NCBI RefSeq assembly: GCF_030758415.1
Contig: NZ_CP132334.1
Coordinates: forward strand, 992,001 to 1,056,000
Length of the DNA stretch: 64,000 nt
Reading direction: 5' to 3'
Source: Parvularcula sp. IMCC14364
GTDB taxonomy: Bacteria > Pseudomonadota > Alphaproteobacteria > Caulobacterales > Parvularculaceae
Part shown: piece after piece, positions 42,056 to 57,274 of the stretch
Layout: each line of letters opens with the position of its first letter
Position numbering within the stretch: position 1 is the stretch's first letter
Notes under the pieces: model-generated
Databases searched by the model: none
What the model saw: only the letters and a program-made list of their open reading frames with translations
Told to the model about the DNA's origin: nothing
Made by a program: the position numbers and the translations under genes

Positions 42056-44341
42056 CTAATAAGTCACAGTGCCGTTGAACAGGATGGAATAATAATAATC
42101 ATCCCGTTCCTTGTTCTCGAACAAATCATCAAATCCATCTCCGGGCACAAGCGCTGCGCCAGAAAGGCGGAAAACAAAATTCTGAATAAATCTCGGCCGA
42201 TAGATGGTTGAGACAGAAACATCCCAGCCAATATCCTCGGCAATGTTCCCCTGTATGCGCAAGGCTTCGAGGGAGCTTGTATCTTCAAACCATAAGTGGT
42301 TCGCGTTGAGCGAAATGCGCAATGGCGGTGTCACGTCGAAGTCTGCGCCAGCCCCAAGCAGGATTGTACCCGGATTGGTGAAATTAGACTGGCCCTGTTC
42401 CTTGGATGAGCGCAGCGAATTCAGGACACCATTGCGCCCGTTGACGCTGATAACGCGGCCACCACCGGCAAACGGTATGGTCTGGCGTATCCAGTAGCTG
42501 GTATCGGCACCTGCAAACTGGGGGTTTTCGAAAATGGCATCAAAGCCCTTTTCTTCATCATCATACGGATCATCATCGCCACTTGCATACATGCCTGACA
42601 ATCTGAGGCGGATCCAGTTGTAATCAACGGAAGGCTCAACGGCGACGAAATAGGCATTAATGTCCGCTGGCTGGTCCGTAAAGATGCTGTTCCGGTTCTC
42701 TCCCAGTGCGTAATACACTGATGAAGTCCAGTTCATCCGTTTCCAGCGACCATCCATGTTATAGCCAAGATACACAGCGTCATAATCTCGCCCGCGAATG
42801 CTGCCGAGCAGGGCAGGGCGGACCGGGAAGCCGTTGTCATCAATCTGCACATCGTCTTTTTCCCGGTTCATATTGTAGACAATGGTGCCCTGGCTCGTCA
42901 TGCCAGGGAACGGGAAGTCCTGACGAAAGGCATTGGCGGCGAAGACGTAATCATCACGCAGCGCAGATGTTATGTCATTGAGACCGGAGTTGGTGTCTTT
43001 CTCAAGCCGGGCGAATGCTGCAAGATTGTATTGCCAGCGGTTGTTGTCCCGGTTGCCAAAGAAACGGATGCCGAACTGGTTGTCCTGAAACAGAAAGCCA
43101 CGGAAATCCGTGTTGAAAGGCTGAATGCCGAATCGCAGGGAATCAAAGTCATACCGGTCCGAGACGTTGCGGATGTGATAGTCCACAAAAGCTTCCTGAA
43201 TACCAATCCAGCCGTCGCGGCGTGTTGAACCCTTGCTGGGCTCCACAAACAGGACACGCTTTTCGTTGATATCCACATAATTGTAGTTGAAGGCAGCCGT
43301 GATCCGGTATTCGTAATCCTGCGGCTTGAAAGCAGTCGAACCTTTGATGAGGGCTGCCTGGGCAATAAAGGTCTGCGCCGCCACAAAGCTGTAGGCATCG
43401 CCAAACACGTCAAGGCGGCCCGGTAATTCGGTGGTCTGCACACCGACTGGCACAGGGAATGTCCGAGGTTCAATAATCGTGTCAGAGATACCGCTGAGAG
43501 CAATGAACCAGTCATCTGTACCCTTGATGGGCCGGTCGCCTTTGAGGGTGTTTTGCCCATACGGGTTGAGCAGGTTGTGATTTACCAGGCCAAGATTGGA
43601 CGCAAGTCGCCAGCGATCCGGTATCGGAACAGGATCACCGACAAGATCGTATGCTGTCGGCGGCTGGATACCGTCAAGATTTGGGGGAGCGACCCGGTTT
43701 TGCTCACCGATACGGGCAGGACGACCAGGGCGACGGCGAATGCCACCATTGATGGTGTCGCGTGTCGCAGGATCATATTCATCTGGATCATAATAGACCT
43801 GCGTTGCCAGATTAAGCTGCAACGGCGAACTGGCCAGAGAGCGATTGATGTCCGCAACGATGCTGTCTGCGCTCCAGTCTTCGGTTTCGACATAGAGGGC
43901 CGTTCCGTCCTCGACGCTTCCTTCAAGCGCTGCTTCGAGATCAGATAACAGTCCGTCATCAGGTTGAGCATCTGTGCTCTGCGACTGGTTCTGGCGCCGG
44001 GGTGGCTGCATCAGGGCCAGAGCGATGATTGCTTCATCCGGTTCATCGCTTGAGGCTTGTGTAGCCGTGCCGTGTGACTGTCTTGCCGCCCAGGTGTCCT
44101 GTATGTCGAATTCCACCGACGCGTATGTCGCAACCGGTGTCAGGTCCATCTGGAAGGACTCATCGGCGAGTGTATAGTTGATATCCGCCAGAATGGAGTC
44201 CGCACTGAGGTCAGTTGCGGTGCCAGCAATATCATTCTGCAGACTTGCTTCACTGCCGGGTATATAGCTGCAGCCGCAAACCAGTGCTGCAAGACTGGTG
44301 GAAAGAAGCAGGCGAGGGGAATTCATTTTATCGCGCAGCAT
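42056..44341 (-). CDS. predicted outer-membrane beta-barrel (porin-like) partner of the cytochromes
   Basis: This 761-residue exported protein begins MLRDKMNSPRLLLSTSLAAL, with a possible lipobox around VCGC (Cys24). I chose this ATG because AGTGAGG lies just upstream; the longer open frame lacks a signal. Residues about 40-230 contain two related units, LSADSILADINYTLADES and WSADSIVADINRSLASSP. From about 250 to the end, alternating strands rich in Tyr, Trp and Phe (GFLFQDNQFGIRFFGNRDN; YDAVYLGYNMDGRWKRMNW) and a final aromatic residue (VTY) fit an outer-membrane barrel. By analogy with porin-cytochrome conduits it may house or dock the decaheme cytochrome, 13 bases downstream. It does not match a porin family that I can name. 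Confidence 0.65.
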   Translation of the reverse strand: MLRDKMNSPRLLLSTSLAALVCGCSYIPGSEASLQNDIAGTATDLSADSILADINYTLADESFQMDLTPVATYASVEFDIQDTWAARQSHGTATQASSDEPDEAIIALALMQPPRRQNQSQSTDAQPDDGLLSDLEAALEGSVEDGTALYVETEDWSADSIVADINRSLASSPLQLNLATQVYYDPDEYDPATRDTINGGIRRRPGRPARIGEQNRVAPPNLDGIQPPTAYDLVGDPVPIPDRWRLASNLGLVNHNLLNPYGQNTLKGDRPIKGTDDWFIALSGISDTIIEPRTFPVPVGVQTTELPGRLDVFGDAYSFVAAQTFIAQAALIKGSTAFKPQDYEYRITAAFNYNYVDINEKRVLFVEPSKGSTRRDGWIGIQEAFVDYHIRNVSDRYDFDSLRFGIQPFNTDFRGFLFQDNQFGIRFFGNRDNNRWQYNLAAFARLEKDTNSGLNDITSALRDDYVFAANAFRQDFPFPGMTSQGTIVYNMNREKDDVQIDDNGFPVRPALLGSIRGRDYDAVYLGYNMDGRWKRMNWTSSVYYALGENRNSIFTDQPADINAYFVAVEPSVDYNWIRLRLSGMYASGDDDPYDDEEKGFDAIFENPQFAGADTSYWIRQTIPFAGGGRVISVNGRNGVLNSLRSSKEQGQSNFTNPGTILLGAGADFDVTPPLRISLNANHLWFEDTSSLEALRIQGNIAEDIGWDVSVSTIYRPRFIQNFVFRLSGAALVPGDGFDDLFENKERDDYYYSILFNGTVTY

Positions 44342-44348
44342 GTGGCCC

Positions 44349-46502
44349 TCACTTCCCTTGGCAAACATTTTGAGCGTCAGAATCAACAAACGGGGTAAAC
44401 GGACAGTTGATATAGCGCAGACGAATTTCTTCTCCGTTAACCGGCACGACAATATTGTCGGCACGAATCTCCGGCGGTGCGTTGTTGATGGTGCCCAGAC
44501 GCAAGCCCGCATTGTGCAGGCCGAGGAATGAAATCATGTCGTCCTGGTCAATCCCGTCACCGGACACGCCAATGCCGCCGACGAGCTCGCCATCACGATA
44601 GATTGGCACACTACCCGGGAAAATCTGGATGCCATTCTGCAGCCGGTTTTCTCCTACAGCAGACGGATTGTCTGCTTCCGGCAGGAAAGTGCAGACCGGG
44701 GCTGTGTCAGTAGGTGTGATATCACGCAGGAAGGCGGCATGTTCGATCACATTGTCCAGTACCAGATCAATCTGCAGACCGGTTGCAAACGGGCTCCAAG
44801 TATCGATTGGCAGAGAGAGCGGCCCGTTAACGGTATTGACTTCCCCATCCGGAAAATAGGGCCGTGAGAGGTTCCCGCCAGAGCGGTCAGCAAAAGCAAC
44901 CGTACCTGTCAAAGCCGTCTGGTCATTCAGGAAATCACGTACAATCTGAGTGTAGTCACGCTCCAGAGGGTCCGGAATGAACTGCCCTGATACGGCATCA
45001 GGGTTGGCCCGCGCAAAATCGCCGACAGGACTGGTGCCTGTATTCTGCAAGTCATCAGCTGCATTGGGACCAGAAAAGAAAGCGGCTGTGCGTGCCTTTT
45101 GCAAGGAAACGTCGGTGCCGAAAATCGGCGCATCCGGCCCGCGAATGACGCCGAGAATTTCGCCATTGGTGTCAACGATGGAGATGGTGACCTGCGCCAG
45201 GCTATTGAGAGGCTGGCGGATCTGTCCCCGGGCCTGAGCCATGATACCGAAAGATTCTTCCAGCAGGACACTGACCTCATTTGCCGTCAGTGGGGCGGAA
45301 ACAGTGCCGGCGTCTGTCCCGGCTATCGGCGGATAGCGATTGTTGCCGAAACCGTCACTGAGCACATAGGCGTCCGGATTGGAGAATTCGGCAGGGGTAA
45401 CAGCCCGGAAACCGGATTCTTCGGAGCCATAAGCCGTGCCTGCGCGTACGGTTACGCCCCCTGCATTCTCATAATAGCTCTTAACGGGTGTGAGTTGCCC
45501 CTCAACCCCATTGATGCTGGCAAATGACGGTACCGTAGAAGCATCAGTCATCAGATCATTTTCGGTTGCGTCCGAAAAGCGCAGGAATGTTCCGTCAACG
45601 GAAATGCGCCCGGCGCGGATATTGGTCGGCGCTGCGAAGCCGACAGCGCCAGCTATCGCGATCAGCTCTTCAATATCTGTGTCCAGGTCGAGTGTGTTGG
45701 TATCGAAGCCGTAATCATTGTCGGCAGAAACGCCGATAGCGCCCACGACAACACCGTTCTTGTAAAGAGGGATGCCGCCTGGGTCAGCCGCCAGCCCGAG
45801 TGGAGAGCGCTTGGGGCCGATCAGGGCGCCGCCAAAGCCGGTTGCGCCAAACTGCGACTGTGTATCGAGCCGCCGTGTGTTCAGGTCAGAGCAGGGCAGC
45901 TGACTGAACTGCACCCCAAAAAGAGGGCCGCTTTCAAGCCCGATGGTCGTTGGAGCAGGGGGGAAGTGTTCCTGCACAATCTGGCTCGCTGTGCGGGTTG
46001 TAAAGGCATTGCCCTGGGAGGAAAGGTAGGCTCCTGTGACTGCTTTTGCGATGGCTGTGACAGGGCGCGGCACAATGGTAATGCCCTGTACACCGCGATT
46101 ATCTTCAGGATTAACAGCGAAATCCACATTGGGACCGGAGCGGAGTGGTTCGACTGAGTTTTCAAAAGTGCTGAGGTCTGTAACAGTGTCGTCACTCGGG
46201 TCACTGTCGATAGTCCCGTTCATGGAAAAAACGGCCAGCACGTTGCCAACGCGGTCGACAACAGCGATTGAGGCCGGAATGTTGCGGGCAGAGGCTTCTG
46301 CCACGGCCTGTGCCAGAACGGTTTCAACGTCCGCGACGGTAAGGTTTTCCTGAGCAGGAATATCAAACGTCGCCTTCGGGCTTGGGGGCGTTCCTTCATT
46401 CGGGGCCGGCGCAGGATCGCTGCCGCCGCCGCCACTACACGAAACAACCAGCAATGCTGCTGATCCCAAAAGTAAGGATTTCAGGCTCGACCTTACTGTC
46501 AT
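44349..46502 (-). CDS. lipoprotein with two GlcG/HbpS-like heme-binding-type domains
   Basis: This 717-residue lipoprotein has a lipobox VVSC (Cys22) followed by a Gly-rich linker. Residues about 52-300 and about 390-710 each look like a GlcG/HbpS domain, with LTVADVETVLAQAVAEA and PASIAVVDRVGNVLAVF, then DGELVGGIGVSGD near the C-terminal domain end. HbpS proteins bind heme and sense redox stress; GlcG roles vary. In most genomes this domain is single and about 140 residues, so this double, enlarged form is unusual. It starts 102 bases after the pentaheme gene and ends seven bases before the barrel ATG. It probably sits at the membrane near the cytochromes. Confidence 0.8.
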   Translation of the reverse strand: MTVRSSLKSLLLGSAALLVVSCSGGGGSDPAPAPNEGTPPSPKATFDIPAQENLTVADVETVLAQAVAEASARNIPASIAVVDRVGNVLAVFSMNGTIDSDPSDDTVTDLSTFENSVEPLRSGPNVDFAVNPEDNRGVQGITIVPRPVTAIAKAVTGAYLSSQGNAFTTRTASQIVQEHFPPAPTTIGLESGPLFGVQFSQLPCSDLNTRRLDTQSQFGATGFGGALIGPKRSPLGLAADPGGIPLYKNGVVVGAIGVSADNDYGFDTNTLDLDTDIEELIAIAGAVGFAAPTNIRAGRISVDGTFLRFSDATENDLMTDASTVPSFASINGVEGQLTPVKSYYENAGGVTVRAGTAYGSEESGFRAVTPAEFSNPDAYVLSDGFGNNRYPPIAGTDAGTVSAPLTANEVSVLLEESFGIMAQARGQIRQPLNSLAQVTISIVDTNGEILGVIRGPDAPIFGTDVSLQKARTAAFFSGPNAADDLQNTGTSPVGDFARANPDAVSGQFIPDPLERDYTQIVRDFLNDQTALTGTVAFADRSGGNLSRPYFPDGEVNTVNGPLSLPIDTWSPFATGLQIDLVLDNVIEHAAFLRDITPTDTAPVCTFLPEADNPSAVGENRLQNGIQIFPGSVPIYRDGELVGGIGVSGDGIDQDDMISFLGLHNAGLRLGTINNAPPEIRADNIVVPVNGEEIRLRYINCPFTPFVDSDAQNVCQGK

Positions 46503-48125: not shown

Positions 48126-50570
48126 GTGGGGCAACTCTACAAGATTGCAATCGTTGGCTCTGGTCCAGCCGGCCTGAGTGCTGCTGTCCATGCTGCGAAG
48201 CTTGGCATTTCTCATGTGCTGCTTGAGAAAACCGACCACCTTTCCGATACCATATATAAGTATCAAAAAGGCAAGTACGTCATGGCGACGCCGGAAGTAC
48301 TTGTTCTGCGTTCGGATATATCCTTTCAGGCTGGTAAAAGAGAGGAAATCCTTGGCACATGGGACAGTGAATCTGAATTTCATCAGACCAATGTTCAGTA
48401 TAATGCGGATGTCAACAAGATCACGGGTGAGCGCGGCAATTTCAAAATTGAAACTGCAGCAGGTGATACAATCATGGCGGAGCATGTTGTGCTCGCGATT
48501 GGCACCCAGGGTAACCCGAACAAGTTGAGATGCCCCGGTGGCGACCTGCCATTTGTGCAGTACCAGCTTGATGACCCGAAAGAATATTTTGACGAAAACA
48601 TCATCATTGTCGGTGGTGGTGATGCCGGTATCGAGAACGCGCTGGGCCTGTCTGAAGATGCCGGTCAGGGAAATAATGTTGTCCTGCTGCAAAGGAGCAA
48701 CGGTTTCCCGCGATCTAAGCCGGCCAATGTATCGCTGCTTGAAGACGCCAAGGCGCAAGGCAAGCTGGACTTCCTGATAGGCACGACGCCGCTCAAGCTG
48801 GAGCCCGGCGTGATGACCGTCGAGACACCTGATGGGCAGGCAGAATTGCCTGTAGACCGCGTGATTGCCCGTCTCGGCAGTGCCCCGCCACGTCGCTTTG
48901 TTGAAGATATCGGGATTGAATTTACCGGCCCTGACCGGGATGCGCTGCCGGTCCTCTCGGAAGTGTTTGAATCAAGCACACCCGGCATTTTTGTTGTTGG
49001 GGCGCTGGCCGGTTATCCGTTGATCAAGCACTGCGCGAACCAGGGCTATGACGTTGTCGAATTTGTCAATGGCAACACTGACCTGAAACCTGCTGATGAA
49101 CCAATCCTGCGCGATATATTCAAGGACCTGCCCGGCGGCTACGAAGTATCCGAATGGCTGGAAATCCTCCGTAACAAAGTCGATATTTTCCGCGATGTTT
49201 CCATCCTTCAGCTGCGTGAATTCATGCTTGAATCCACCATGCACTACAAAAAGAAGGGTGAAGTAGTCTTCAAGCGGAATGAACTGGGTGACTCCCTGTT
49301 TGCCGTTGTCGGCGGTACCGTCAATGTAGAGATCAATCCCAACGACCCGAGTATTGTGGTGCCGCTGGGGGACGGGGAAATATTTGGCGAAATCGGCCTG
49401 ATTTCCGGTCGTCGTCGTGGCGCGACCATCCGGTCAGATGCCCCGTCAATTCTTGTGGAAATGCCGGCGCGCGCCGCTAAAAAACTGATTGCGACAATCC
49501 CTTCGGTGAAACGTGCTGTGGATGAAATCGCGACAGAGCGTCAGATCAAACAGATTTTCGGCAACGACATCTCCCCGGAATGGGTCGATCGCCTGAAAGA
49601 AACGTCCGAGATGCTGGAATTGAAGTCCGGCGAAACCATTATCCAGGAAGGTGAGGTCAGTACAGACGTCTTCATCATCCGCTCGGGCAGTGTGATTGTT
49701 GAGAAAAATATTGGCGGCAAGGAGATCTTCATCTCCTACGTGGCTGCTGGCGCGCTTATCGGTGAGATGGCTTTGTTTGAAGAAGGCAAGCGCACAGCGA
49801 CGGTTCGCACAACGATCAAATCTGAAATCATCAAATTGCAGGGCGATATTTTCAGCGCCATGATGGAAGAGCGTCCGATGATCCGCAAGCGGATCGAGGA
49901 AACGATCGCAGCGCGGCGTGAAGTTAACTCATTCATCGAATCACAAAAGAGCGGTTTTGGTTCTGTTGTGGATATGTATTCCTCAGTCGCCAACTTCCTC
50001 CTTGAAGAAGGCCTCGGGGAGGCGACAGACGCCTTGCTGATTGATGAGAGCCTGTGTGTCGGCTGTGACAACTGCGAGGTTGCCTGCGCCGAAACCCATC
50101 AGGGTATTTCGCGCCTCGACAGGGAAGCTGGCAAGACCTACGCCAACATTCACGTGCCAACATCCTGTCGCCACTGCGAGCATCCGCATTGTATGGGGGA
50201 TTGCCCGCCAGATGCCATTCGTCGTGCGCCAGATGGGGAGGTCTTCATCAACGAAACCTGCATCGGGTGCGGCAACTGTCAGCGTAACTGTCCTTACGGC
50301 GTTATCCAGATGGAGCGTGTGCCACCCAAAAAGCCGGGGCTGTTACAGTGGCTCCTGTTCGGGGCAGGGCCAGGACCGGGGCAGCCCAGCAAGGCATGGG
50401 TCAACAAGGTTTCTTCAGAAGAAGAGAAAACAGGCATGAAGGTCGCGGTGAAATGTGACATGTGCAAAGGGATCAAAGGCGGTCCTGCCTGCGTCAGGGC
50501 CTGTCCGACGGGTGCTGCGATCCGGGTTTCACCGGAGCAATATCTCAACGTCGCGCAGCGCAAGGGGTAA
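48126..50570 (+). CDS. FAD/NAD(P) oxidoreductase fused to two cyclic-nucleotide-binding domains and a four-cluster ferredoxin
   Basis: This 814-residue cytosolic protein has three parts. Residues about 1-320 form a thioredoxin-reductase-like flavoprotein: FAD motif GSGPAG (11-16), NAD(P) motif GGGDAG (163-168), and STPGIFVVGALAG (284-296); the redox CxxC is absent. Residues about 355-465 and 485-590 are two cNMP-binding domains with FGEIGLISGRRRGAT and IGEMALFEEGKRTATV, both keeping the Glu and Arg that hold cAMP or cGMP. Residues about 640-800 carry four [4Fe-4S] motifs (CVGCDNC, CRHC, CIGCGNC, CDMCKG, each with a distant Cys) like NrfC/HybA subunits. It would take electrons from NAD(P)H to the cytochrome b encoded six bases later, with gating by cyclic nucleotides as inference. 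The GTG start has GGGGAG upstream. Confidence 0.92.
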   Translation: MGQLYKIAIVGSGPAGLSAAVHAAKLGISHVLLEKTDHLSDTIYKYQKGKYVMATPEVLVLRSDISFQAGKREEILGTWDSESEFHQTNVQYNADVNKITGERGNFKIETAAGDTIMAEHVVLAIGTQGNPNKLRCPGGDLPFVQYQLDDPKEYFDENIIIVGGGDAGIENALGLSEDAGQGNNVVLLQRSNGFPRSKPANVSLLEDAKAQGKLDFLIGTTPLKLEPGVMTVETPDGQAELPVDRVIARLGSAPPRRFVEDIGIEFTGPDRDALPVLSEVFESSTPGIFVVGALAGYPLIKHCANQGYDVVEFVNGNTDLKPADEPILRDIFKDLPGGYEVSEWLEILRNKVDIFRDVSILQLREFMLESTMHYKKKGEVVFKRNELGDSLFAVVGGTVNVEINPNDPSIVVPLGDGEIFGEIGLISGRRRGATIRSDAPSILVEMPARAAKKLIATIPSVKRAVDEIATERQIKQIFGNDISPEWVDRLKETSEMLELKSGETIIQEGEVSTDVFIIRSGSVIVEKNIGGKEIFISYVAAGALIGEMALFEEGKRTATVRTTIKSEIIKLQGDIFSAMMEERPMIRKRIEETIAARREVNSFIESQKSGFGSVVDMYSSVANFLLEEGLGEATDALLIDESLCVGCDNCEVACAETHQGISRLDREAGKTYANIHVPTSCRHCEHPHCMGDCPPDAIRRAPDGEVFINETCIGCGNCQRNCPYGVIQMERVPPKKPGLLQWLLFGAGPGPGQPSKAWVNKVSSEEEKTGMKVAVKCDMCKGIKGGPACVRACPTGAAIRVSPEQYLNVAQRKG

Positions 50571-53464: not shown

Positions 53465-55480
53465 ATGATAACTGAGATTGGTCACTATGCGCTGGTGCTT
53501 GCCCTCATTGTGGCAATCGGTCAGACAATCATCCCCCTTCGGGCCGCCCATATTGGCGATAACAAGGGTATGGCGTTTGCCAAAAACGCGAGCATGGCGC
53601 AGTTCATTCTGGTGCTGGTCGCGTTTCTGGCTCTTATGCATGCCTATGTAACTTCGGACTTCAGCGTCGAGAATGTCTATCAGAACAGCCACTCGGAAAA
53701 GCCGATGATCTACAAGATCGCCGGTGTCTGGGGAAACCATGAAGGCTCGATGGTTCTCTGGATATTGATGCTGTCTTTTCTGGGTGCCCTGGTTGGTCTC
53801 TTTGGCGGTAATCTGCCACCCTCCCTGCAGGCGCGCGTCCTTGGTGTTCAGGCCCTGATCGGTGCTTGTTTTCTGGCTTTTTCCCTGTTCACATCCAACC
53901 CCTTTCTCCGGATGGACCCTGTGCCGGTCAATGGGACAGACCTGAATCCGCTATTGCAGGACCCTGGTCTCGCTTTTCACCCACCATTTTTGTATCTGGG
54001 TTATGTGGGCATGTCCGTCGCGTTTTCTTTCAGTGTGGCAGCCCTTCTTGAAGGTCGCGTGGACCCTGCATGGGCCCGCTGGGTTCGCCCGTGGACCTTA
54101 CTCGCATGGTCAAGTCTCACCCTTGGCATCGCCATGGGATCATGGTGGGCCTATTATGAACTCGGCTGGGGCGGCTACTGGTTCTGGGATCCGGTTGAAA
54201 ACGCTTCTCTCATGCCCTGGCTTGCCGGCACAGCACTGCTCCACAGCGCTATTGTGGTCGAGAAGCGCAACACGCTGAAGCTCTGGACCATTTTGATGGC
54301 CATTACCGCGTTCTCGACGTCATTGCTTGGCACATTCGTGGTGCGCTCAGGCGTTCTGACAAGTGTGCACTCATTCGCCAATGACCCGGACCGGGGCGTT
54401 CTGCTGTTGGGAATTTGTATTCTCCTCACAGGCGGGGCGTTTGTTCTATACGCCCTGAAGGGACACGCCATGAAAGCGGGCGGGACTTTTCAGACGGTCA
54501 GTCGTGAGTCAGCCCTTATACTGAACAATCTGTTGCTTTCCGTCATTCTGTTCATCGTGCTCATTGGCACCTTCTGGCCGACTATTGCCGAATTGATGAC
54601 TGGTGAGCGGATCACTGTTGGCCCGCCATATTACAACATCCTGACTATTCCGCTGATGATGCTTCTCGCGGCGGTTATGGCTTTCGGCATTCTGCTGCCC
54701 TGGAAGAGGGGAGACATGAAAACCGTTTCAGGCCGTCTCAAATGGGCTGGGGGCCTGACGGTCATATTCACACTCACCGCCTTTTACCTGTCCGGGTTCA
54801 CCAACATTCTGGCCATCGTTGGCTGTCTGATTGGTTTCTGGATCATGCTGAGTACACTGACGGATGTCGCGCTGCGCATGAAGCTGTTCCAGACACCGGT
54901 CAAGACCAGCCTCAATCGTGCTGCGGGCTTTCCGCGCGCTTTCTGGGGCGGCTCACTGGCCCATTTTGGTGTCGGCGTCTGTATAATCGGCATGGTTGGA
55001 ACTTCTCTGTGGGTTACAGAAGAACAGACCATCATGAAGCCGGGCGACGTCATTGATGTGGCCGATTACCAGCTCAGAATGGAGCGCATCGAGATCCTGA
55101 ATATCGCCAACTACGAAACTGAAATGGCGACATTCAGCCTCATCAAGGATGGGACAGTCATCAGCATGGTCCAGCCGGAGCGCCGCTGGTATCCTGTTGC
55201 TCAGCAGCAGACAGTCGAAGCTGCCATTCTGCCGCGCTGGTCATCTGATATATATGTGGCCATCGGGGAGCCTCGCGGCGAAAATAACGAGGCACGTATC
55301 GTGCGCGCCTATTATCATCCGCTTGTGATGTATCTCTGGGGCGGCTCTGTGCTGATGGCGTTTGGCGGTATTGTTTCGTTGACTGATCGTCGCTATCGCG
55401 TTGGTGCACCAAAGCCGAAACAGGCAAAATCAACGGCGCCGCAGGGGAACACATCACCTGTTGCTGTGCCTGCAGAATGA
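53465..55480 (+). CDS. ccmF: cytochrome c maturation heme lyase subunit CcmF
   Basis: This 671-residue inner-membrane protein, about 15 helices, attaches heme to apocytochromes in system I. The heme-handling WWD-type loop is visible as YYELGWGGYWFWDPVENASLM near 235-255, and conserved periplasmic His residues are in the loops. The C-terminal 30 residues are hydrophilic and cytoplasmic. It follows the FHA cytochrome gene after 67 bases and leads ccmH after ten. ccmE, usually adjacent, is not here. It may be the housekeeping gene, or a copy serving the unusual heme sites of this cluster. Confidence 0.93.
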   Translation: MITEIGHYALVLALIVAIGQTIIPLRAAHIGDNKGMAFAKNASMAQFILVLVAFLALMHAYVTSDFSVENVYQNSHSEKPMIYKIAGVWGNHEGSMVLWILMLSFLGALVGLFGGNLPPSLQARVLGVQALIGACFLAFSLFTSNPFLRMDPVPVNGTDLNPLLQDPGLAFHPPFLYLGYVGMSVAFSFSVAALLEGRVDPAWARWVRPWTLLAWSSLTLGIAMGSWWAYYELGWGGYWFWDPVENASLMPWLAGTALLHSAIVVEKRNTLKLWTILMAITAFSTSLLGTFVVRSGVLTSVHSFANDPDRGVLLLGICILLTGGAFVLYALKGHAMKAGGTFQTVSRESALILNNLLLSVILFIVLIGTFWPTIAELMTGERITVGPPYYNILTIPLMMLLAAVMAFGILLPWKRGDMKTVSGRLKWAGGLTVIFTLTAFYLSGFTNILAIVGCLIGFWIMLSTLTDVALRMKLFQTPVKTSLNRAAGFPRAFWGGSLAHFGVGVCIIGMVGTSLWVTEEQTIMKPGDVIDVADYQLRMERIEILNIANYETEMATFSLIKDGTVISMVQPERRWYPVAQQQTVEAAILPRWSSDIYVAIGEPRGENNEARIVRAYYHPLVMYLWGGSVLMAFGGIVSLTDRRYRVGAPKPKQAKSTAPQGNTSPVAVPAE

Positions 55481-55966: not shown

Positions 55967-57145
55967 TTAGCGTCCCAGCGCCGCTTTTGCATCCGCATCA
56001 TCAGGTGACAACCGCAGCACTTGTTCATAGGCCGCCCGCGCTTCTTCCGTCCGGCCAAGTGTGCCGTAAGATCTTGCCAGCATTTTCCAGCCAGAAAGGT
56101 CTTCCGGGTCTTCAGCGAGCCGCGCGGCGAGGCCAGCCACCATGCCCTCAATCATCTGGCTTTGTTGGTCACTTGTCATCTGCTGCGCGGCCTGAATATC
56201 TGCGGCAGTTGGCCCGCGCTGAGGCTGGGGTTGCTGTACAGGTGGAACAGTCGCAGAGCCGGTCTGCTGAGCCCGGCTGATAACGGACCCGAAATCACCA
56301 TCAGAAACAGCAGCAAGTTGTTGGCGCACGACTGGCAGCCATGGCGCGTCAGGCGGTGATATGCTGATCAACCGCTCCCAGTCTGCAACCGCGGCAGGGA
56401 CGTTTCCTTGCTGTGCCTTGGCAAGCGCCAGATAGTAAACTGCCTGCGGGTCATTCTCGTTCTCTGACAGAAAGGCTTCAAAGATTGACCTGGCTTCCTG
56501 ACTGACCATGCCACCATTGCCCACAACCAGGGTCTCGGCATACTCGGCGGCCAGTTGTCGGTCGCGCCCGCCCACAACGCGATTGGCTTCCCGGTAGGCC
56601 TCAATCGCTTCATCATAGCGATTGAGGTTGATGAGTGAGCGCGCCAGCAGGGCCCAGCCCTCCGCGTCTTCAGGATTAGCCGCCAGGCGCTGGCGCAGGG
56701 AGCCGATCATGTCATTCATCCCTGAATGCATACCGTCTGCAGCGGATGGGGCGCTGGCGAGATCAATGCGCTCAGCAAAGGGAGAAGCAGGCTGGTCCGG
56801 GCTGCCATTGGTGAAATAGACGATGCCAGCAAGAATGGGCATAAGCCCGGCAAAACTGAACAGCAGAATTGGCGGCCCGTTCTTTGTCTGCGCTTTTTCC
56901 TCCTGCACAGCTCTCGCTTCCAGCAGCATGCGTCGCTCGATTTCAAGTTTGGCTGCTTCGCGTTCCTCCGGCGCGATCACCCCGCGGCTTACATCCCGGT
57001 CCAGTTCTGAAAGCTGATCGCGGTAAACCGTCAGATTATATTCGCTGGTCCCCGCCTGTTCTGTCTGTCCGCGACGCAAATACGGAATGACAAGCATCGC
57101 AACAGCGCAGAATGTCAGCAGGGCACAGACCAGGAACAGCAGCAT
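55967..57145 (-). CDS. ccmI: cytochrome c maturation chaperone CcmI
   Basis: This 392-residue protein has two N-terminal helices (MLLFLVCALLTFCAVAMLVIPY and ILLFSFAGLMPILAGIVYF) around a cytoplasmic coiled stretch (residues about 25-100), then a periplasmic TPR domain with units such as DAEGWALLARSLINLNRYDEA, then EAYREANRV. CcmI holds apocytochrome c for CcmF/H. The ATG at 57145 is favoured by the signal-like helix; an open frame 14 codons longer is possible. Its opposite orientation to ccmF/ccmH is unlike the common ccmI-ccmE-ccmF-ccmH order. Confidence 0.9.
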   Translation of the reverse strand: MLLFLVCALLTFCAVAMLVIPYLRRGQTEQAGTSEYNLTVYRDQLSELDRDVSRGVIAPEEREAAKLEIERRMLLEARAVQEEKAQTKNGPPILLFSFAGLMPILAGIVYFTNGSPDQPASPFAERIDLASAPSAADGMHSGMNDMIGSLRQRLAANPEDAEGWALLARSLINLNRYDEAIEAYREANRVVGGRDRQLAAEYAETLVVGNGGMVSQEARSIFEAFLSENENDPQAVYYLALAKAQQGNVPAAVADWERLISISPPDAPWLPVVRQQLAAVSDGDFGSVISRAQQTGSATVPPVQQPQPQRGPTAADIQAAQQMTSDQQSQMIEGMVAGLAARLAEDPEDLSGWKMLARSYGTLGRTEEARAAYEQVLRLSPDDADAKAALGR

Positions 57146-57274
57146 CTTCAAACCTCGATAAAATCTACGCAAGACATAGGGCAGCAAAGCCGTCTTGAAC
57201 AGACTTCTTGATCAACTCAAGTCTCTCGCCGCTCTATCTTGATCGGGCAAGGGGGTGCCCCTAAGGTCCGCCCT

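Follow-up and report, generated by a model that had tools for sequence, protein, structure and literature searches.

A flavin and Fe-S protein with tandem cyclic-nucleotide-binding domains: a candidate for direct second-messenger control of electron transfer in alphaproteobacteria

Introduction

The known actions of cyclic nucleotides in bacteria run mainly via transcription factors. In the mycobacterial acetyltransferase Pat, an enzyme without a redox function, a fused cyclic-nucleotide-binding domain (CNBD), present once, controls the enzyme directly. Tandem CNBDs are seen in the regulatory subunit of PKA and in PKG, where the output is a kinase. As for redox modules, the closest described ones are the FAD-dependent putative bacillithiol disulfide reductase YpdA/Bdr, the HycB/NrfC/DmsB-type ferredoxin subunits and AegA.

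In Sinorhizobium meliloti, cAMP synthesis by CyaC answers to the respiratory redox state, and the link between cAMP and respiration there runs via transcription factors (PMC10463352, in the sections drawn on here). The Sinorhizobium cyaD1 cyclase locus includes a class III phosphodiesterase (PDE), SpdA, together with a CNBD protein, the transcription factor Clr (PMC4222275); the sections of that paper drawn on here report that SpdA has no detectable activity on 3',5'-cAMP and cuts 2',3'-cAMP and 2',3'-cGMP.

Here we describe an alphaproteobacterial protein family in which tandem CNBDs are fused into a flavin and Fe-S protein. Judging from sequence and gene context, we propose with a probability of roughly 0.6 that its members are cytoplasmic NAD(P)H-linked electron-entry subunits of a membrane cytochrome chain and would be switched directly by a cyclic nucleotide. 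If true, a second messenger directly switching an electron-transfer enzyme would constitute a fast layer of respiratory control, and the idea is testable at once, since the family is present in many cultured Sphingomonadales, such as Sphingobium, Novosphingobium and Erythrobacter. Among the matches listed, no publication deals with this flavin-CNBD-Fe-S fusion, which, literature coverage being partial, is weak evidence of absence.

Domain architecture and conservation of the fusion protein

The protein (hereafter the target) is encoded in a 64,000-nt stretch of the Parvularcula sp. IMCC14364 genome (the window; Table 1), and one full-length copy occurs in that genome, a single contig of 3.42 Mb. 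Its ORF has a GTG start preceded by a ribosome-site-like GGGGAG stretch and contains no internal stop. A sequence-only reading had described a single 814-residue chain with a FAD/NAD(P) domain, two CNBDs with their Glu and Arg ligands retained, and 16 cysteines in four [4Fe-4S] motifs, the CNBDs lying between the flavin and Fe-S modules; the domain matches and the alignment described below bear out each of these points. The N-terminus is a Pyr_redox_3 domain (Pfam, 1.2e-33, residues 9-292), two stretches match the cNMP-binding model PF00027 (3e-33; 114.1 bits vs a cut-off of 27.5), and several Fer4 Pfam models match the target. The ligand motifs read FGE422IGLISGRRR431GAT in CNBD-A and GE547MALFEEGKR556TAT in CNBD-B, and the cysteines fall at 644/647/650/654, 681/684/689/693, 712/715/718/722 and 777/780/789/793. 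In the AlphaFold2 model (mean pLDDT 77.5) the flavin domain and CNBD-A are good, CNBD-B is middling and the Fe-S part is poor.

Table 1. Genes of the target locus in the window; locus counts for the accessory genes are affected by the many loci that are cut by flanks or contig ends
Feature	Coordinates	Strand	Remarks
Putatively exported cytochrome, 1375 aa	37915..42042	-	10 CXXCH + LVIVD repeats; matches in 46/89 loci
Predicted outer-membrane beta-barrel, 818-aa ORF	42056..44512	-	AlgE/OprD-like fold; matches in 42/89 loci
HbpS-domain protein, 717 aa	44349..46502	-	matches in 22/89 loci
Cytochrome c554-like protein, 474 aa	46605..48029	-	4 CXXCH + 1 longer haem motif; divergent from target; matches in 9/89 loci
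Target ORF, 814 aa	48126..50570	+	FAD/NAD(P) (YpdA/Bdr-like) 5-307; CNBD-A ~371-460; CNBD-B ~495-585; four-cluster ferredoxin region 637-800
Membrane b-type cytochrome-like protein, 295 aa	50577..51464	+	weak Ni_hydr_CYTB match below cut-off; four TM-like stretches; 6-nt gap after target
FHA + multihaem c-cytochrome, 641 aa	51472..53397	+	N-terminal FHA-like domain; one TM-like stretch ~141-159; then 9 CXXCH; 7-nt gap after b-cytochrome
CcmF/NrfE-type haem lyase (cytochrome c maturation)	53465..55480	+	stands here in the place that the PDE has in many relatives; matches in 13/89 loci
CcmH/CycH-type TPR protein (cytochrome c maturation)	55967..57187	-	matches in 74/89 loci, partly via unspecific TPR repeats

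Full-length homologues are found in 9 of 299 genomes of a phylum-wide sample (own genome included; 10 copies), and those outside the own genome are 45-61% identical to the window protein. A pattern scan of genome contigs yielded at least 592 stretches, of which at least 536 encode a relative of the target (E up to 1e-3; some possibly partial). The best 80 of these were kept for analysis; they come mainly from Sphingomonadales, with Phenylobacterium and other Caulobacterales, Parvularculaceae and unplaced Alphaproteobacteria also represented, and the relatives referred to below as examined form a set biased to the best matches. The nearest named relatives among the matches listed are Aquisalinus metagenome-assembled genomes (MAGs), at 97-98% identity.

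Conservation was assessed in an alignment of 90 rows, comprising the window protein and one protein for each of 89 loci (9 from the phylum sample and the 80 best matches, a few genomes being represented twice). At a 75% identity threshold these rows fall into 23 clusters, whose two most divergent representatives share 43% identity, and 142 of the 814 alignment positions are invariant. All 16 cysteines and the pocket residues E422, R431, E547 and R556 are identical in 90/90 rows; sites for 3',5'-cyclic nucleotides typically carry such Glu/Arg pairs. Of the 11 invariant residues in CNBD-A, nine lie within 421-434, the phosphate-binding stretch. Five of the six FAD/NAD glycines tested are likewise invariant, G168 being Ala in 4 rows, and the NAD(P) loop keeps R190 and F194 throughout (90/90). 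The target is thus a conserved family in many alphaproteobacteria, and its motifs are not chance occurrences. In one genome there are two full-length copies (L046 = G001:C17 and L045 = G001:C96), one of which has a class III cyclase with a FIST domain some 4 kb away.

Relationship to known flavin, ferredoxin and CNBD proteins

The flavin domain shares both fold and sequence with YpdA/Bdr (TIGR04018, 1.2e-37); comparison with 7a7b gives a VIA Z of 33.7 with 311 residues aligned at an rmsd of 2.9, and Foldseek retrieves 7a76 at 1.2e-26. The target nevertheless scores 129.4 bits on TIGR04018 vs a cut-off of 339.9, and differs further in that its flavin domain is fused to the CNBDs and Fe-S clusters. 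The position that we take to correspond to the YpdA/Bdr active-site Cys, in the first glycine-rich loop, is position 15 of the target, which is never Cys (Ala in 83, Ser in 4 and Gly in 3 of the 90 rows). Thioredoxin reductase carries a redox-active CxxC in its NAD domain, and no conserved Cys pair at CxxC spacing occurs in residues 1-636 of the target across the 90 rows. A function as thioredoxin or bacillithiol reductase is therefore rejected, as the needed cysteines are missing, and disulfide chemistry at the target flavin is unlikely because there is no conserved Cys pair; given the clusters and the membrane cytochromes, transfer of single electrons along a chain is the natural interpretation.

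The 16-Cys four-cluster region is shared with the HycB/NrfC/DmsB-type ferredoxin subunits (formate hydrogenlyase subunit 2, 3.7e-22) and the target also matches AegA (3.2e-20), which is likewise a ferredoxin-plus-flavin-type protein. Unlike in these, the Fe-S part of the target is C-terminal and the CNBDs are interposed between it and the flavin domain. Models of named Fe-S subunits score far below their cut-offs (AegA, 71.8 bits vs 1003; HydN, 63.5 vs 260; among the best 25 of 125 families). The regions matching the tandem CNBDs of PKA RI-alpha (377-580, 3.8e-9) and of a PKG (356-560, 1.4e-14) span both CNBDs of the target, which joins them to a redox domain in place of the kinase output, and the Pat model matches via the CNBD at 1.1e-18.

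The cytochrome operon

The two genes that follow the target are strongly associated with it: homologues of the b-type cytochrome-like protein occur in 86 and those of the FHA-multihaem cytochrome in 84 of the 89 target loci, some of the misses falling at contig ends. In the b-cytochrome, His97, His111 and His121 are present in 87/87 rows, and His273 and His287 in 86/87. The suggestion from the sequence-only reading that the target is a respiratory-type enzyme gains support from these conserved cytochrome genes, which place it in a membrane electron-transfer chain. The b-cytochrome and the beta-barrel have no match in PDB sequence searches at E up to 1, and the FHA-cytochrome and the LVIVD cytochrome none at E up to 0.01; a PHROGs scan of the b-cytochrome likewise gave no match.

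Of the GR, Ser and His positions that we take to form the phosphothreonine site of FHA domains, G31 and R32 are kept in 84/85 rows and H49 in 82/85, and position 46 is Ser in 6/85 rows and Glu or Asp in 50. Since most rows thus lack the binding Ser, phosphothreonine control through the FHA-like domain is weakened as a candidate; the window row retains the Ser. The loss also indicates that the operon tolerates the disappearance of ligand residues elsewhere. Decay of the CNBDs is accordingly unlikely, as their pocket residues are invariant while the neighbouring FHA-like domain has lost its ligand Ser in most rows.

The barrel and HbpS ORFs (42056-46502, both on the minus strand) share 164 nt, and homologues of the barrel align from residue ~205 or later, except in the sister MAG L048. 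Hence, the true start of the barrel is probably internal. Its model (mean pLDDT 64.2, middling) has 18 strands and matches AlgE/OprD barrels at Z ~26. A MtrCAB-type extracellular conduit, which we take to consist of a large MtrB-type barrel around a cytochrome, is unsupported by this 18-stranded, AlgE/OprD porin-like barrel; there is also no MtrB entry among the matches listed, which proves nothing alone.

The same gene order, as judged from position and annotation, is present on the 959-kb plasmid pMSHV of Sphingobium herbicidovorans, where the target is annotated solely as 'cyclic nucleotide-binding domain-containing protein' and the fourth gene as 'metallophosphoesterase'. This plasmid is typed conjugative, and the operon lies on it with cytochrome neighbours (NZ_CP020539.1 800868-831357, L155), so that the cluster may move between strains.

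A linked SpdA/CpdA-like class III phosphodiesterase

When ORFs were clustered over 79 stretches, namely the window plus 78 loci 14 kb or longer, 49 of them yielded a putative PDE family of ~285 aa. It matches the SpdA and CpdA models as well as PF00149, with all eight proteins scanned matching both SpdA and CpdA; the scores of the first member (145 bits vs a cut-off of 400 for SpdA, 89.7 vs 225 for CpdA) lie below both curated cut-offs. The metal-binding motifs D.H, GD, GNHD, HH and GH.H are invariant in the 8/8 aligned proteins. A profile built from eight members detects the PDE in 49 of 58 target-bearing genome entries, with 50 strong copies scoring 344 to 475 bits. Of these copies, 41 are found no further than 3.5 kb from the target; the remaining nine are 0.14-1.33 kb from a PF00211 cyclase, and for eight of the nine the target is likewise no more than 18 kb away. 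Both ORFs were called in 44 loci, and in 42 of these the PDE comes immediately after the FHA-cytochrome in the same orientation. Among 80 genomes of the same class that lack a full-length target, 39 match the profile at 1e-12, with a top score of 241 bits; this gap to the target-bearing group (241 vs at least 344 bits) is partly built in, as the profile was made from that group. The linkage of PDE and target across target-bearing genomes is new here. One genome has a second PDE copy (G301:C31:275976-278344) away from the target, with a class III cyclase some 1 kb distant, which suggests that PDE and cyclase form a unit of their own.

In the profile search of the 58 entries, neither the window genome nor eight other target-bearing entries yield the PDE; every one of the four entries from outside the class that were tested (G154, G153, G034 and G001) is among those lacking it. 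Because of this absence, the window operon provides the anatomy of the system and not the PDE evidence. Nor is the PDE proof of a 3',5' messenger, because SpdA, its best curated match, acts on 2',3'-cyclic nucleotides in the sections of PMC4222275 drawn on here.

Class III cyclases

A PF00211 cyclase is encoded in all 9 target-bearing genomes of the phylum sample and in 48 of the 49 others, i.e. in 57/58 together. It lies within 30 kb of the target in 36/58 genome entries, against ~2.5 expected under uniform placement, and within 10 kb in 15/58. Of six linked cyclases scanned with Pfam, five have CHASE2 (one is cut before the catalytic domain) and one has FIST domains. In 50 well-flanked loci the genes near the target include the PDE in 35, glutamate dehydrogenase in 19 and the cyclase cluster in 10. 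We have demoted cyclase proximity as proof, given that a housekeeping gene, that of glutamate dehydrogenase, neighbours the target in more loci than the cyclase cluster does (19/50 vs 10/50); the cyclase linkage is weaker than the counts suggest because of shared synteny and the relatedness of the genomes. In the window genome the nearest cyclase is 982 kb from the target. This genome has a CHASE2 cyclase that shares 35-45% identity, across a length above 700 aa, with 6 of the 12 target-adjacent clustered cyclases of other loci.

Possible mechanism and alternatives

The earlier suggestion of direct control of the enzyme by a cyclic nucleotide stands as a well-supported hypothesis, in view of the strict conservation of the pockets and the position of the PDE beside the target in most relatives examined; the nucleotide may be cAMP, cGMP or another one. 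The further part of the suggestion, that the nucleotide opens or closes the step from flavin to Fe-S clusters, is suggested by the domain order. It is also conceivable that the CNBDs bind cyclic nucleotide and regulate assembly or docking, be it of the b-cytochrome, the FHA domain or a dimer, and leave the flavin-to-cluster step alone. The place of the CNBDs between the flavin and Fe-S parts would suit this as well, and the FHA-like domain encoded two genes on, having mostly lost its usual phosphothreonine Ser, may be a docking module; however, no result favours docking over intramolecular gating, and we regard this alternative as unlikely.

A different ligand altogether, such as a 2',3'-cyclic nucleotide, a nucleoside or another cyclic nucleotide, from which the PDE would protect the enzyme, seems quite improbable to us. 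The substrates of SpdA are in line with it, as is the binding of 2',3'-cAMP by Clr without activation (PMC4222275, in the same sections) and the response of a trypanosome PKA to nucleosides (PMC10959531, in the part drawn on here). Against it stand the universal retention of the Glu/Arg pairs, the near-universal class III cyclases of the carrier genomes and the nine PDE copies that adjoin one. That the CNBDs are structural remnants in an unregulated enzyme is highly improbable: the window genome indeed lacks an operon PDE, but the four pocket residues are invariant over all 23 clusters, down to 43% pair identity, and the PDE adjoins the target in most relatives examined.

Under direct control of the electron-entry subunit by a cyclic nucleotide, NAD(P)H would reduce the YpdA-like FAD of the target; the NAD(P) loop motif, we presume, makes NADPH more likely than NADH. 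One-electron transfer from the flavin would then run along the four [4Fe-4S] clusters to the inner-membrane b-type cytochrome, from which the electrons may reach the periplasmic FHA-anchored multihaem cytochrome c and the multihaem proteins encoded alongside, with a final acceptor that is itself a presumed part of the scheme. The tandem CNBDs are predicted to bind a 3',5'-cyclic nucleotide and to set the coupling of flavin and cluster domains allosterically: given their linker position, their nucleotide-driven movement might bring flavin and clusters together or apart. The messenger itself, and not transcription, would thus switch the electron flow; it would be produced by a class III cyclase, which often carries a CHASE2 sensor, and removed by the operon PDE in most relatives examined. 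A fuller version, which we hold tentatively and at somewhat less than even odds, is an electron valve in which the CHASE2 cyclase senses an extracytoplasmic cue, the messenger on the tandem CNBDs admits or bars NAD(P)H electrons to the periplasmic multihaem chain within seconds, and the operon PDE resets the system.

The direction of electron flow given here is the presumed one, and the reverse is possible. As a separate observation, a target-bearing Parvularculaceae MAG (L107) is named Biocath_Alpha_06, perhaps pointing to a biocathode origin, and electron uptake is worth considering.
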